This document shows, piece after piece, positions 32,553 to 44,587 of a DNA stretch of 64,000 bases (the first letter of the stretch is position 1; the number at the start of each line of letters is the position of its first letter). This DNA comes from Cellulosimicrobium cellulans (GTDB lineage Bacteria > Actinomycetota > Actinomycetes > Actinomycetales > Cellulomonadaceae): the NCBI RefSeq assembly GCF_006539945.1, contig NZ_BJNZ01000008.1, positions 62,001 to 126,000 of the forward strand. The letters are read 5' to 3'. Under the pieces are notes generated by a model, which saw only the letters and a list, made by a program, of their open reading frames with translations, was not told the DNA's origin and ran no database searches. A program made the translations under genes and the position numbers.

Positions 32553-32633
32553 GCCGAGAACGACTCTGCTCGCCGCCGAGAACGACTCTGGTGTCGTTAT
32601 CCGTCGGATAACGACACCAGAGTCGTGTTCGGC
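32553..32633. repeat. interspersed hairpin element family B, copy 1
   Basis: The main hairpin has 29-bp arms (32575-32603 and 32605-32633, 27 of 29 paired) around one central base. The left end reads GCCGAGAACGAC and the right end GTCGTGTTCGGC. The first 16 bases of the left arm are repeated at 32553-32568, giving a small extra stem. It lies 3' of hemQ and 5' of the TspO-like gene. Related copies are at 37350-37423 and 44475-44529. Confidence 0.85.
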
Positions 32634-32644
32634 GCGGCGCTCGG

Positions 32645-33379
32645 TCACGCCAAGGGCTGGCGGTCCGCCCAGGCGGTGAGCGTCGTGCGCGGGCCCGTGA
32701 AGAACGGGACCTCCTCGCGCACGTGGCGGCGAGCCTCGGTCGCGCGCAGCTCGCGCATGAGGTCGACGATGCGGTGCAGCTCGTCGGCCTCGAACGCGAG
32801 GATCCACTCGTAGTCGCCGAGCGCGAACGACGCGACCGTGTTGGCGCGCACGTCCGGGTAGTCCTTCGCCGCGAGGCCGTGGTCGCGCAGCATGGTGCGG
32901 CGCTCGGCGTCGGGCAGCAGGTACCAGTCGTACGACCGCACGAACGGGTACACCGACAGGTAGTCGCGCGGCGCCTCGCCCGCGAGGAACGCCGGCACGT
33001 GGCCCCGGTTGAACTCGGCGGGACGGTGCAGCGCCGCGTTCGACCACACCGGCTCCAGGTGCGCCCCGAGGCCGCTCGCGCGCAAGCGCTGGTAGGCACC
33101 CTGCACCGACTCGATCGTCGGCCCGTGCCACCACACCATGAGGTCGGCGTCCGAGCGCAGGCCCGCGACGTCGTACCAGCCGCGCACGACGAGGTCGCCG
33201 TCCGTCGCGGCCGGGTCGTCACCGCCGCCGACGGCGGCCAGCGCGTCGGCCACGAGGCCCGCTCGCTCGTCCGCGTCGGCGGGCAGGGGCGCCGCCGTCG
33301 CGAAGACGGACCACATCGCGTAGCGGATGGTGGTGTTGATCTGCTCGTGGTCCGCGGGCACGCGCGCGGCGTCGTTCAT
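32645..33379 (-). CDS. hemQ: coproheme decarboxylase
   Basis: This 244-residue protein belongs to the chlorite-dismutase-like family. [13 protein letters not shown] carries the catalytic Tyr of actinobacterial HemQ, MLRDHG supplies the likely proximal haem His, and [14 protein letters not shown] is the conserved second ferredoxin-like domain. HemQ performs the last step of the coproporphyrin-dependent route, decarboxylating two propionates of coproheme. It lies 41 nt downstream of ferrochelatase in one operon, behind a GAGGAA ribosome binding site, which is consistent with coproporphyrin ferrochelatase feeding HemQ. Confidence 0.94.
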
Positions 33380-33420
33380 CGGGGTTCCTCTCGGGTCCGT
33401 GCGGGGGTGTCCGCCGGGGT

Positions 33421-34650
33421 TCAGCTGTGGACGTCAGTGCTGCACAGCGCCGGGACGCCGCTCGGCTCGCCGTCGCGGCGCAGGCAGCAGCCCGGCGCGC
33501 ACACCGAGCGGAACGCGGGCAGCGCGCCGACCGTGGCCTGCTCGACGTCCTCGCCGCGCGCGAGCGCCGCACGCTCGACGAGCAGGTCCACGAGTCCGCG
33601 CACGAACGGCTCGCGCGTGCTCACGGTGCCCGCGCGGACCGCGGTCATCCCGAGCCCCGTCGCGGTCTCCATCGCCTCGGTGTCGAGGTCGTACGCGACC
33701 TCCATGTGGTCGGAGACGAAGCCGATCGGCGACAGCACGACGTCGCGGACGTCGTCCTGCGCGAGGGCCTCGAGGTGGTCGTTGACGTCGGGCTCGAGCC
33801 ACGGCTGGCTCGGCGGGCCGGACCGCGAGCAGTACGCGAGGTCCCACGCGACGTCGTGACCCAGGCGGGCCGAGACCTCCGCCGCGATCACGCGCGCGAG
33901 GTCGAGGTGCTGCTCGGAGTACGTCGCGAAGGAGATGCGCGACGCCGCCTCCATGGTGTCCGGGATGGAGTGCGTGACGAACACGAGCCGCGCGGCCGCG
34001 CCGTCGCCGCCCTTGTCCGCGAGCGCCGCGTAGCCGTCGAGCACCGCGTCGACGTTCGCCTGCGCGAAGCCCGGGTGGTTGAAGTAGGAGCGCACCTTGT
34101 CGAACTGCACGCCCGTCGAGCCGTCGGGGCCGAGCTGGCCGCGGCCGTCGAGCACGACCGCGAGGTCCTCGCGGTACTGGCGGCAGCCGGAGTACGACGA
34201 GTACGCGGACGTCACGAGCGCGACGGCGTTCTGCGCGCCCAGCGCCTCGAGCTCGTCGATCGCGTCGGTCGTGTACGGCTCCCAGTTGCGGTTGCCCCAC
34301 ACGACGGGCAGCTCGACGCCGCGGCGCGCGAGCTCGGCCTCGAGCGCCGCCTTGAGCGCGAGGTTCTGCTCGTTGATGGGGCTCTTGCCGCCGAAGCCGT
34401 AGTAGTGCTCGCCGACCTCCTCGAGACGCGAGTCCGGGATGCCCTTGCCCGCGGTGACGTTGCGCAGGAAGGGCACGACGTCCTCGGGCTTGTTGGGCCC
34501 GCCGAACGAGTACAGCAGCAGCGCGTCGTACGGGCGCAGGTCAGGGGTGGGACCGGGGTCGACGGCGCTCGCGGGGGTGGCGGCGGGCACGACGGGCTCG
34601 GCGGCCCGGCCCGTGTCGGCAGTGACGTCCTGGGGGGAGAACGGGGGCAT
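33421..34650 (-). CDS. hemH: coproporphyrin ferrochelatase with iron-sulfur ligands
   Basis: This 409-residue enzyme inserts iron into the porphyrin. It contains [18 protein letters not shown], the active-site block [12 protein letters not shown] and the C-terminal [19 protein letters not shown] Cys in [11 protein letters not shown] and a C-terminal Cys cluster ([10 protein letters not shown], then ALC) match the [2Fe-2S] ligand pattern known from actinobacterial ferrochelatases. With HemQ next in the operon it should act on coproporphyrin III (CpfC). The ATG at 34650 is chosen for its purine-rich ribosome binding site; an ATG near 34662 and a longer frame to 34746 are also open. The 40-residue N-terminal extension is Ala/Pro-rich. 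Confidence 0.93.
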
Positions 34651-34851
34651 GCTCCCGATCATGGCACCCGCTCGTGAGCCCGCTCGTCCGGAAGCGGGCA
34701 CCTCGGACGTGACATTGACGGGACAAGGTGTCACCTCGTGGCTCACGAGGACGGTCGAGCCCTAGACTCGGGCCGCTCGCCCCTCGGGCAGCGTCGCGGG
34801 TACCGAGGCCCGCGCACGAGCCGCCCGAGCCGACCACGTGGAGGTGGAGCG

Positions 34852-35892
34852 GTGCCGCTCCCGGAGATCACCGAGCGCGTGCCGCTCACGCGCCCCGACG
34901 GCCGCCTCGACCGCCGGGCCGTCGGCTGGGCGCGCCAGCCCCTCGTCGACACCGACGCGATCGGGCGCGGCGGGGCGGGCGGCCCGCGCCGGTTCGGCCG
35001 GAACAAGCGCTGGGAGTACTGGGGCGTCACGACCCCGACGCACGTGCTCGCCCTGACCGTCTCCTCGATCGACTACGCCGCGGTGCACGAGGTGTGGGTC
35101 CTGGACCGGGAGTCGGGGCGGACGTGGGGCGCCGCCGCGACCGTCGTGCCGGCGCGCGGCGTCGAGCTCCCCGGCACGCTGGGCGAGGGCCCGGCACGCG
35201 CCCGGGCGAAGAACCTCGCGATCGACCTCGACGAGGTCGACGGCGGCACGCGCCTGCGGGCGCGCACGCGCGACGTCTCGTTCGACGTCGTCGCCGCGCT
35301 GCCGCCGGGTCACGAGCGGCTCGCGGTGGTGGTGCCGTGGAGCGACACGCGGTTCCAGTACACGGTCAAGGACGTGGCCCGCCCGGCGCTCGGGACGTTG
35401 TGGGTGGACGGCCGGACGGTCGACGTGCCCGCCGGGTCGTCGTGGGCCGTGCTCGACCACGGACGCGGGCGCTGGCCGTACGACGTCCGGTGGAACTGGG
35501 GGGCGGGCTCGGGCGAGAGCCACGGCCGGGTCGTCGGGATCCAGGTGGGCGGCCGCTGGACCGCCGGCACGGGCTCGACCGAGAACGCGGTCCTCGTCGA
35601 CGGGTGCCTCCACCACCTCCCCGACGAGCTGGTCTGGGACTACGACCTCGCCGACCCGGACCGGCCGTGGCGGGTCACCGGCGGCGGTCTCGACGCGACG
35701 TTCGAGCCCTTCCACACCAAGGTGACGCGTACGCACCTCGGCGTCGTGTCGTCGTCGACCGACCAGTGCTTCGGGACCTGGTCGGGCACGTTCACCCCGC
35801 CCGACGGCGGCCCGTCGGGATCCACGGCGACCGGGCCGGTGCGGTTCGACGGGCTCGTCGGCTGGGCCGAGGAGGTCCACAACCGCTGGTGA
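34852..35892 (+). CDS. DUF2804 family protein
   Basis: This 346-residue protein opens with EITERVPLTRPDGRLDRRAVGWARQPL and has RNKRWEYWGVTTPTHVLALTVSSIDYA, the N-terminal pattern of DUF2804. The repeated GTGSTENAVLVDG and HHLPDELVWDYD segments suggest a beta-rich lipocalin-like body. There is no signal peptide. Function is not established. The GTG at 34852 is chosen because GGAGGTGGAG lies 4 nt upstream; an open upstream frame begins at 34738 without a ribosome binding site. It is divergent from the haem operon. Confidence 0.82.
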   Translation: MPLPEITERVPLTRPDGRLDRRAVGWARQPLVDTDAIGRGGAGGPRRFGRNKRWEYWGVTTPTHVLALTVSSIDYAAVHEVWVLDRESGRTWGAAATVVPARGVELPGTLGEGPARARAKNLAIDLDEVDGGTRLRARTRDVSFDVVAALPPGHERLAVVVPWSDTRFQYTVKDVARPALGTLWVDGRTVDVPAGSSWAVLDHGRGRWPYDVRWNWGAGSGESHGRVVGIQVGGRWTAGTGSTENAVLVDGCLHHLPDELVWDYDLADPDRPWRVTGGGLDATFEPFHTKVTRTHLGVVSSSTDQCFGTWSGTFTPPDGGPSGSTATGPVRFDGLVGWAEEVHNRW

Positions 35893-35914
35893 GCGCGGTG
35901 CGACTCCGCCCCGC

Positions 35915-35942
35915 TTGCCAGTGCCCGGGGCGTGCCTAGCGT
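35915..35942 (+). promoter_or_regulatory. promoter of the alkaline phosphatase gene
   Basis: TTGCCA (35915-35920) and TAGCGT (35937-35942) are separated by 16 bp. The start of transcription would be near 35949, leaving a leader of about 108 nt that contains an 8-bp hairpin at 35952-35973. No PHO-box repeat is evident. Confidence 0.5.
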
Positions 35943-36056
35943 GGGGACGATCCGGCGGCACCGACGCCGCCGGGCGCGGCCCGCGCGCGACGGCGACACC
36001 GTCCCCTCCGCGGCCGTGCCGGCACCGGCAGCGACGCCGGTGGGAAGGGGAAGCTC

Positions 36057-37349
36057 ATGCAGTCACGACGAGGACAGCTCCGGGCGGGTACCACGGGGGT
36101 CGCGGCGGCCGCGGCGCTCGTGATGCTCCTGCCGTTCGGCGGGAGCGAGCGCGGCGACGGCCAGGGCCACGGTCAGGGCCACGGGAACGACCGGGCGCGC
36201 AACGTCATCTTCATCCAGGGCGACGGGCTCGGCCTGTCGCACCGCGAGCTGATCCGGCTCGCGACGGTCGGCAAGGACGGGCAGCTCGCGATGGACTCGC
36301 TCGAGCACGCCGGCTGGACCACCACGGACTCGGCCGACCCCGAGGAGGCGGTCACCGACTCCGCCGCAGGCGCGACCGCGTTCGCGTCGGGGGTGCGGAC
36401 GTACAACGGGGCGGTCGGCGTCGACGTCGACGGCAACCCGGTCCCGACCCTCCTCGAGGCGGCCCGGGGCGCGGGCAAGGCCACCGGCCTGGTCACGACG
36501 GCCCAGGTGACCGACGCGACCCCCGCGGCGTTCGGCGCGCACGTGCCCGACCGCGGCGACCAGAGCGAGATCGCGCGCCAGTTCCTCGAGAGCTCGCGGC
36601 CCGACGTCGTGCTCGGCGGCGGCGAGGACTGGTGGTACCCGGCGGGCGACCCCGGCGCGTGGGAGGACAACCCCGCGAAGGACCCCACCGAGCAGAGCAA
36701 GGGGACGAAGGGGAACCTCGTCGAGCGCGCGCAGGACCTCGGCTACACGTACGTGAGCGACGCCGAAGGGCTCGCGGACGCACGCGGACGCAAGCTGCTC
36801 GGCCTGTTCGCGAACGAGGAGATGTTCGAGCAGCGCAACGAGGGCGAGGGCGACCTGTACGAGCCGGAGGTGCCGCTCGTCGACATGACGGCCAAGGCGC
36901 TCGACGTGCTGTCGCGCGACCGTGACGGGTTCCTCCTGCTCGTCGAGGAGGAGGCCGTGGACGAGTTCGCGCACCGCAGCAACGCGACGCGCACGATCCA
37001 GGCCGGGCAGGCGCTCGACGAGACCGTCGCGCTCGCGCTCGACTTCGCGGAGAAGAACCGGGGCACGCTCGTGCTCGTCGTGGGCGACCACGCCACGGGC
37101 GGGCTCGCGATCGAGAACGTCGACCCGGACGACGAGAGCGGCGAGGGCGCCACGACCGAGGACGGCCCGTTCGACCTCGCGGGGTCGGACCTGCAGTTCA
37201 CGGTCGACTGGACCACGGGCGGCCACACGGGCGAGGCCACGCCGATCACCGCGCAGGGCCCGGGCGCCGCACGCCTCGCGGGCGCGCAGCGCAACACCGA
37301 CGTCCACGACGCCGTGCTGCGCGCCATGCAGGGCCGCGGCCGCGGCTGA
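36057..37349 (+). CDS. phoA: secreted alkaline phosphatase (PhoA family)
   Basis: This 430-residue enzyme has an N-terminal signal peptide (basic SRRGQLR, hydrophobic to about residue 28), then a Gly/His/Gln-rich spacer (GDGQGHGQGHG). The catalytic domain shows IFIQGDGLG (metal ligand), VTDSAAGATAFASG with nucleophile Ser102, EEEAVDEFAHRSN, VGDHATGG and TGGHTGE, which together supply the two-zinc/magnesium site. It should hydrolyse phosphate monoesters outside the cell. A GGGAAGGGGAAG ribosome binding site precedes the ATG. A family B hairpin begins right after the stop. No pst or phoU genes are near. Confidence 0.94.
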   Translation: MQSRRGQLRAGTTGVAAAAALVMLLPFGGSERGDGQGHGQGHGNDRARNVIFIQGDGLGLSHRELIRLATVGKDGQLAMDSLEHAGWTTTDSADPEEAVTDSAAGATAFASGVRTYNGAVGVDVDGNPVPTLLEAARGAGKATGLVTTAQVTDATPAAFGAHVPDRGDQSEIARQFLESSRPDVVLGGGEDWWYPAGDPGAWEDNPAKDPTEQSKGTKGNLVERAQDLGYTYVSDAEGLADARGRKLLGLFANEEMFEQRNEGEGDLYEPEVPLVDMTAKALDVLSRDRDGFLLLVEEEAVDEFAHRSNATRTIQAGQALDETVALALDFAEKNRGTLVLVVGDHATGGLAIENVDPDDESGEGATTEDGPFDLAGSDLQFTVDWTTGGHTGEATPITAQGPGAARLAGAQRNTDVHDAVLRAMQGRGRG

Positions 37350-37423
37350 GCACGACCCTGCTCGCGGTCGAGAACGACTTTGGTGTCGTTATCCGCGGGA
37401 TAACGACACCAAAGTCGTGTTCG
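37350..37423. repeat. interspersed hairpin element family B, copy 2
   Basis: Arms 37369-37394 and 37398-37423 (26 bp, 24 paired) enclose GCG. The left end CGAGAACGAC and right end GTCGTGTTCG are identical to copy 1, including the same two unpaired positions. One arm position changes from C:G in copy 1 to T:A here, a compensatory change. A small stem (GAGCA/TGCTC) overlaps the phoA stop. It lies between convergent genes and could terminate both. Confidence 0.85.
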
Positions 37424-37435
37424 GCGACGGACGTG

Positions 37436-44399: not shown

Positions 44400-44474
44400 G
44401 TGATTCCGGACGCGCCGAACGCACGCTTGCGTCATGAGGCTTCGCGCCGACCCGCGCCGCACGCGCACCTCTGC

Positions 44475-44529
44475 CGAACACGACATGAAGGTCGTCTTGG
44501 CGCTCATACCGACCGCCATGTCGTTCTCG
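44475..44529. repeat. interspersed element family B, copy 3 (inverted, different core)
   Basis: Ends CGAACACGACATG (44475-44487) and CATGTCGTTCTCG (44517-44529) match the ends of copies 1 and 2 read on the other strand, with the same asymmetry. The 29-nt core is unrelated and pairs only weakly (GGTCG/CGACC). It lies between divergent genes, so it is not a terminator here. Confidence 0.75.
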
Positions 44530-44533
44530 ACGC

Positions 44534-44587
44534 GGGGTGGGGGCGGGGGGTGGGGGGGTGGGGGTGGCTGGCTCGGTGGGGGTGGGG
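44534..44587 (+). promoter_or_regulatory. G-quadruplex-forming G tract upstream of the GH20 gene
   Basis: Seven runs of four or more G (4 to 7 each), mostly parted by a single base, lie on the coding strand from 44534 to 44587, ending 31 nt before the GTG. They cover the -35 region of the predicted promoter. Confidence 0.7.

Follow-up and report, generated by a model that had tools for sequence, protein, structure and literature searches.

A 64,000-nucleotide stretch of the Cellulosimicrobium cellulans genome (contig NZ_BJNZ01000008.1, positions 62,001 to 126,000 of the forward strand; hereafter the window) carries copies of a dispersed hairpin element. Copy 1 sits between the 3' end of a chlorite-dismutase-family (hemQ-type) gene, whose end is at 32645, and the start of a TspO/MBR-family gene. 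Copy 2 lies between the convergent genes of an alkaline phosphatase (phoA, end 37349) and an ATP-binding cassette (ABC) permease (end 37436). A preliminary description of this DNA had placed both hairpins at these gene 3' ends and had reported common ends and a near-identical stem of 26-29 bp. Rescanning confirmed this, with a stem of 29 bp in copy 1, 26 bp in copy 2 and a loop of 3 nt in each (plain scan with two mismatches allowed). A third, degenerate copy was absent from that description. The copies are listed below with their scores against a covariance model of the family; half-site denotes a short word that recurs within each unit.

32555..32634, plus strand: copy 1, whole 80-bp unit (edges from column statistics of 51 copies; model match 92.3 bits)
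32555..32564, plus strand: copy 1, extra half-site CGAGAACGAC, 22 bp before the left arm
32578..32630, plus strand: copy 1, 53-nt palindrome (half-site, 6-nt spacer, inverted half-site, 5 nt, then the mirror image)
37347..37426, plus strand: copy 2, whole unit, between convergent phoA and the ABC permease gene (model match 94.6 bits)
37370..37422, plus strand: copy 2, 53-nt palindrome (from stem scan and folding)
44472..44551, minus strand: copy 3, degenerate unit with its hairpin at 44476-44528, in the gap between a lacI-type and a GH20 gene that diverge (strand uncertain, with 64.1 bits as minus and 63.1 as plus)

Copy 1 consists of the extra half-site on the left, the hairpin and a terminal GGCG; the 14 nt starting at the extra half-site are identical to the start of the left arm. 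The unit of copy 2 opens with TGA, which serves as the stop codon of phoA, the open reading frame (ORF) ending at 37349. Both hairpins start with GAGAACGAC and finish with GTCGTGTTC. As described before, their stems differ by a single pair, C:G versus T:A (pair 11/43 of the 53-mer); two loop bases differ too. The folding of both copies lies far beyond chance, with RNA folding energies of -39.4 kcal/mol for copy 1 (shuffled mean -13.9, z -8.4) and -36.7 kcal/mol for copy 2 (shuffled mean -12.3, z -8.8). Two further features of the preliminary description held only in part. The two non-pairing end positions are present in both copies, as a G:T pair and an A:G mismatch, but they are no fixed feature of the family, in which the end word alternates among GAACAC, GAGCAC, GAGAAC and GACCAC. 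Only copy 2 has a clear small upstream stem (5 bp); upstream of both hairpins, at a distance of 22 bp, stands another copy of the end word, and the stem is better read as a further half-site.

We searched the genome of origin with copy 1 as the query and then with a covariance model built from 26 copies, and found the element in at least 63 distinct places (E-values up to 0.0011; 128 matches on both strands), four matches with E above 0.1 being left uncounted. This count and those given below for the genus and for other genera are lower bounds that comprise the best-scoring candidates only (150 in the genome of origin, elsewhere 111 or 19 per genome). The 63 places rule out a recent duplication of just two copies, and with it the case, considered in the preliminary description, that the window holds the only two copies genome-wide. 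All 91 model positions are matched without length change at 52 of these places. We aligned 51 of the 63 copies, omitting contig-edge, indel-bearing and the weakest ones. Conservation starts at -22 and ends at +57 relative to the hairpin, abruptly at both limits, beyond which there is only mild C-richness before and G-richness after. The unit is thus 80 bp long.

Its consensus reads CGAnMACGAC, about 13 nt, GAnMACGAC, N6, GTCGTTATC, 5 nt, GATAACGAC, N6', GTCGTGTTC and GGCG. One 9-bp word occurs five times in register, four times within the 53-nt palindrome and a fifth time on one side only. The palindrome is composed of two inverted 24-bp imperfect palindromes, each made of the 9-bp word, a 6-nt spacer and the 9-bp word again; because the spacers are complementary, the second half of the 53-mer mirrors the first. 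Outer words are near-invariant save two positions and inner words less constant, while the spacer pairs vary with matching changes, ATGAGG being the commonest spacer (14 of 52 full-length copies). Among 26 copies the spacer columns 36-41 are paired in at least 92%, with the exception of column 40 (81%). In the 52 full-length copies the left outer end reads CGTC in 23, TGTC in 4 and CCTC in 3, and the right one CGCC in 34 and CGTC in 7; both of these end tags are able to pair in the dimer.

Several observations concern single copies or the words themselves. Three copies of the genome of origin (C1:234105, C15:14058 and C45:1077) form a sub-family in which the left inner half-site, GGACGGAAAG, is unpaired with the right one; this variant is also found at the C1:234105 site in four other genomes of the genus (G001, G006, G011 and G016). 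Five of the 63 copies, on contigs C1, C7, C15, C43 and C47, lie within ~150 bp of contig ends, where ~0.25 would be expected by chance (an estimate for 62 contigs). The hairpin may therefore break short-read assembly, and copy counts from draft genomes would then be too low. The genome holds 323 occurrences of the 13-mer CGYCGANMACGAC (145 + 178, versus 9 for the backward control), an abundance that recalls DNA-uptake words and from which we make no claim: many of the places listed first fall outside the elements, in forms such as CGTCGAGCACGAC, and frequent codon words in genes would explain these. We likewise dropped a general clustering on the chromosome. Among the best-scoring copies of the matches listed, the dnaA-side half holds 41 of 42 in G008 (p = 2e-11) and 34 of 55 in G011 (p = 0.10), where a second cluster lies opposite dnaA among the best copies listed; a rearrangement or misassembly in G011 could be behind the difference.

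Matches are present in all 17 genomes of the genus Cellulosimicrobium. In a C. funkei record whose HemQ is 99% identical, elements occupy the positions of both main window copies. In the rest of the family at least 60 of 204 genomes have matches, and by genus at least 12 of 25, the own genus included (best 19 candidates scored per genome). Across seven other genera, ten genomes picked for having matches hold 10 to 91 each, both strands counted. The model was seeded from copies similar to copy 1, so its reach into other genera is skewed to similar words. In genera g34 and g35 each of the nine elements read (two are identical) keeps the 24-5-24 layout with changed words, and several other genera have similar outer words around unrelated inner stems. 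Rfam gave no match at gathering score in 82,713 bases holding 17 copies; below threshold, two microRNA models and one small-RNA model were the only ones at copy 1. No title or abstract opening in the literature search describes this repeat family, subscription papers being mostly beyond its reach.

The association with gene 3' ends seen in the window extends to the family. Using gene context from a simple codon-based gene caller, we assigned 51 of the 63 copies to a gap: 22 are convergent, 25 tandem and 4 divergent, which puts 47 of the 51 at gene 3' ends. The other gaps of at least 60 bp in the same loci are distributed differently (14 convergent, 65 tandem, 45 divergent; p = 7e-7). Compared with all other gene pairs of any gap, the three-way difference persists (p = 9e-6); the divergent deficit alone is not significant (p = 0.07). 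The 12 unassigned copies comprise six at locus or contig edges and six inside putative ORFs of the simple caller. In tandem gaps the hairpin lies a median of 19 nt past the upstream stop and 103 nt ahead of the next start, and 22 of 25 copies are closer to the stop than to the next start (p = 1e-5). Relative to the upstream gene, the extra half-site is found on either side (11 and 14 of these 25 copies). The 112 proteins flanking the copies match 172 Pfam families in total, the 25 commonest of which are ordinary enzymes and transporters. A terminator scan called none of these hairpins; the stem is followed by G-rich sequence instead of a U-tract or T run.

We compared two regions, which hold five sites, across the genus; several genomes could not be resolved at each site. 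At C1:238648 the element is missing from G002, G004, G006 and G010, where 51, 12, 12 and 21 nt separate the two stop codons, and present in other genomes; at C1:234105 it is missing from G004 and G005. The empty C1 sites are flanked by anchors ~90-96% identical to those of the genome of origin. G003, G013 and G014 lack the element at the hemQ site, where G005 has a remnant and G004 a rearranged hairpin. The spacer at this site is ATGAGG in G011 and G016, while the other seven are TCTGGT (four), CCTGGT (two) and GTTGGT-like (one). Filled and empty sites, together with this switch of spacer type, indicate that copies are gained, lost or replaced between species. At the phoA site the element or a variant is present in the genome of origin and in 12 of the other 16 genomes, and the stems are of several types; G007 has a weak match only, G015 has another palindrome, and G003 and G014 are unresolved. 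In G010 (L227 1222-1326) and G002 (L228 5640-5744) a 54-nt variant hairpin occupies the phoA site, having lost the inner word and kept the palindrome. In G010 the variant hairpin is preceded by three more 21-nt direct repeats that resemble the beginning of the left arm, suggesting slippage as the source of the extra half-site.

Sites that lack a typical element number 11. Eight of them could be folded; in the remaining three the stop codons are 12, 12 and 21 nt apart. Seven fold at z -0.7 to 1.2 on the window strand and at -1.25 at most on the other strand. The best of the eight, the rearranged remnant in G004, reaches z -2.1 in one folding and -1.7 and -1.4 in another. Since none of the eight folds clearly better than its shuffles and the other three have so little room, a strong hairpin is not generally required at these positions, and the foldings gave no support to the candidate explanation that the element replaced a native terminator hairpin at the sites now empty elsewhere.

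Among 26 copies of the genome of origin, 12 of 26 pairs are changed on both sides, 92% of cells are paired and the covariation score exceeds all 500 shuffles, although related sequences can yield such a signal with this tool even where there is no structure. Matched changes were found at 10 of 26 pairs (32 cells) in 11 sequences, 10 of them distinct, at the phoA site and at 12 of 26 pairs (24 cells) in nine sequences at the hemQ site; both scores again lie above all 500 shuffles. The phoA alignment omits the indel-bearing G004 and G013, its double-change count G002 and G010 too, and the hemQ alignment omits species with no clear copy. Covariation this strong, among copies and at single orthologous sites, excludes a single recent duplication devoid of covariation, and the genome-wide and related-genera search bore out the expectation of many copies with further covariation.

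How the pairs change is informative. Over all sequence pairs, which are not independent, and excluding the two end columns, the phoA site shows 100 Watson-Crick double changes versus 30 changes into or out of G:U and 29 into or out of a mismatch or other; the hemQ site shows 125 versus 5 and 56. Several close pairs have doubles only (for instance the window versus G005 at phoA and versus G009 at hemQ, each with 4 double and 0 single changes), and others have singles only (for instance the window versus G006 at hemQ, 0 double and 3 single). An RNA stem that is read from one strand should favour G:U. In the 52 full 91-base copies of the genome of origin G:U and A:C are equally frequent (38 each). 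On the sense strand of the upstream gene, G:U outnumbers A:C by 15 to 10 in 19 tandem copies, too few to decide; gene context for this count covered 40 of the 52 copies (21 convergent, 19 tandem). A stem read from both strands need not favour G:U, so an RNA role at convergent sites stays compatible with the equality. Double changes outnumbering singles and G:U equalling A:C are what templated copying predicts. Arm-to-arm copying or whole-copy replacement explains these data no less well than selection for an RNA stem would. The simplest account of the covariation is template switching or the exchange of one copy for another, perhaps supplemented by selection. Template switching, in which one hairpin arm is copied onto the other, is described for hairpins in passages of PMC8794818.

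Overall, we favour, with a probability of roughly 0.6, the reading that the element is a dispersed palindromic dimer resembling repetitive extragenic palindromes (REPs) and their hairpin-forming doublets (REPINs) but lacking the REP-associated tyrosine transposase (RAYT): a non-autonomous 80-bp unit of two inverted 24-bp imperfect palindromes plus a fifth word. Such a unit would spread or be exchanged as a whole, via a transposase or by recombination between copies, and would survive mainly just behind stop codons. Complementarity of its arms would persist because template switching during replication copies one arm from the other, or because a whole copy is replaced; selection perhaps adds to this. 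A transcript arriving from either direction would form a very stable hairpin, most likely stopping or marking the 3' end of one or both neighbouring messages. Termination or 3'-end protection may, judging from position and fold, be a side effect.

A number of results weigh against this reading. The RAYT domain Y1_Tnp (PF01797) was found in 0 of 17 genus genomes, two of them <90% complete, with a search whose control finds it in 5 of 14 known genomes; a RAYT-driven REPIN was rejected on this ground. No transposase family is among the 25 commonest of the 172 families of flanking proteins, a coverage under which a rarer transposase family could be hidden. The 54 copies inspected show no target-site duplication (best z 2.99 among 1080 settings), and a 9-bp flank match seen by eye at C1:234105 in G011 was dropped because it is not common to relatives. 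No autonomous relative was found, and plasmids, phages and IMG/VR, each searched with one query or pattern, gave no match. Filled and empty sites show no clean cut-in, as their flanks also differ in length; some of the empty sites could be explained by loss, and occupancy of the phoA site looks like retention. In the phoA alignment, both-side pair changes were reached by 11 of 500 shuffles and further pair types by 65 of 500. Finally, the largely constant 53-nt layout would equally fit a functional module.

A selected two-way terminator or mRNA 3'-end protector cassette, whose common sequence would serve a recognising factor and whose hairpin would be kept by RNA selection, would account for copies right behind stop codons and between convergent genes. 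It would also account for folds of about -37 to -39 kcal/mol in the two main copies (copy 1 was folded on both strands) and for a phoA-site stem kept in 11 aligned sequences while 10 of 26 pairs changed on both sides. We nevertheless consider it doubtful, if a serious candidate. The hairpins have no U-tract and escape the terminator scan, the 15 versus 10 pairs on the transcribed strand of the 19 tandem copies give no clear preference for G:U over A:C, and of the 25 tandem units 11 point the same way as the upstream gene and 14 the opposite way. There are only ~60 copies per whole genome, four of them divergent, and at the 11 element-less sites eight sequences fold no better than z ~-2 while three leave 12-21 nt between stops. 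The maintained hairpin family proposed in the preliminary description is only partly supported: many copies, covariation and the 3'-end position stand, whereas the pair change is no proof of a selected hairpin, given element-less sites with no clearly significant hairpin of their own.

Two further explanations were weighed. If the 9-bp word GANMACGAC were read in pairs by a protein such as a regulator, a nucleoid protein or a replication or recombination factor, the palindrome would be a by-product. The fixed centre distances of the five words (22, 15, 14 and 15 bp), the near-fixed outer words beside variable 6-nt spacers and the 24-5-24 layout retained in the nine g34 and g35 elements fit this. 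Independent sites, however, would not need complementary spacers, as found in most of the 26 copies; the words of other genera differ at several positions, and G002 and G010 lose an inner word yet keep the palindrome. We judge such a binding site improbable. Still less credible is a recombination site folded from a single strand in the manner of attC, in which two tyrosine-recombinase core sites (9-bp arms, 6-bp spacer) fold together. Mirror-image 9-6-9 dyads, asymmetric end positions in some copies, the one extra arm site on one side and the missing target duplication all resemble such a site. In integron attC sites the central spacer is unpaired and bases are extrahelical; in the repeat the spacers pair, its word is unlike attC R boxes, and in place of cassette arrays there are single copies scattered beside ordinary genes.

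The REP/REPIN-like reading draws on likeness to known systems as well as on the data above. REPs, according to passages of PMC3733652, lie close behind ORFs, prefer convergent and tandem gaps over divergent ones and vary between related species, and the present repeat has the same gene-end distribution, closeness to stops and variation. It also shares with REPs and with REPINs (the subject of PMC3116915) the head-to-head arrangement of short palindromes, a dimer able to fold as one large hairpin, and tens of copies. Of the two REP classes that PMC3733652 treats in these passages, GTAG REPs are thought to be moved by the Y1 transposase RAYT and CGTC REPs have no known mover. The repeat has no GTAG tag, its ends are mostly CGYC-like and no Y1 transposase was found in the genus. 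It resembles CGTC REPs in having CGTC or CGCC at many outer ends, and may resemble them in lacking a dedicated transposase, given no Y1_Tnp in the genus and no transposase among the 25 commonest of the 172 flanking families. CGTC REPs, in the same passages, carry CGTC (or TGTC, CCTC) unpaired at one end, a stem of 8-9 bp, a loop of 4-5 and a CCA tail. In the repeat, by contrast, the monomer stem formed by the 9-bp half-sites has two mismatches, the loop is 6 nt, a CCA tail is missing, tags are able to pair within the dimer, one side bears a fifth half-site, and G:U is no commoner than A:C. We therefore call it REP/REPIN-like and assign it to neither the GTAG nor the CGTC superfamily, its stem and loop sizes, the lack of a CCA tail and the fifth half-site setting it apart. 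The main text of PMC3733652 does not use the words actinobacteria, Micrococcus or Cellulomonas, and mentions untagged REP-like repeats in M. tuberculosis.

Other classes of repeat were compared in the same way. Miniature inverted-repeat transposable elements (MITEs) are non-autonomous derivatives of DDE transposons. The repeat shares with them sharp ends, inverted ends, copy number and presence/absence between species; it differs in having no target-site duplication in 54 copies and no parent transposon found, and a MITE with target duplication was rejected on the former ground. The likeness to attC lies in the mirror-image pair of arm-spacer-arm sites that folds into a hairpin. The TRIT model, said to come from Gardner's RNIE paper of 2011, reportedly describes a hairpin of conserved sequence that recurs at the gene ends of a high-GC actinobacterium, and by this description the repeat would resemble it. 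Unlike that model, the repeat has orthologous sites that are sometimes empty, and termination by it is putative. TRIT is named as a repeated Mycobacterium tuberculosis terminator model in part of PMC3526491.

Long palindromes built from other words were seen in three related genera, word repetition being examined within the compared stretches only. At the hemQ 3' end of Promicromonospora citrea (L147 10719-10844), the same gene end as that of window copy 1, there is a 126-bp palindrome of a different word: four direct copies of CGAGGTAGTCA, spaced 16 nt, are followed by three inverted ones, of which one is imperfect, in a frame of CGCCGAG / CTCGGCG. Cellulomonas sp. ACRRI (L157 20208-20276) has a 33-bp stem whose left arm holds two direct copies of CGAGTGTGCA ~20 nt apart, and Myceligenerans salitolerans (L155 11921-11988) a 32-bp stem with two direct copies of GGTCGGTCCC, also ~20 nt apart, in the left arm. 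As a speculation to which we give rather little weight, Actinobacteria might harbour REPIN-like mobile palindromes moved by a non-Y1 enzyme; the five half-sites (22, 9-6-9, 5, 9-6-9) would then be its recognition layout and CGAGGTAGTCA, CGAGTGTGCA and GGTCGGTCCC dialects of particular lineages.

Small dispersed palindromes are best described in Proteobacteria, and here we describe, from a high-GC actinobacterial family, a repeat family that is well bounded, countable, without RAYT and polymorphic between close species. Such a family makes the movement of these repeats directly testable. It is also a clear example that a covarying hairpin need not be a sign of selection on RNA, as its arms appear to change together at the DNA level.

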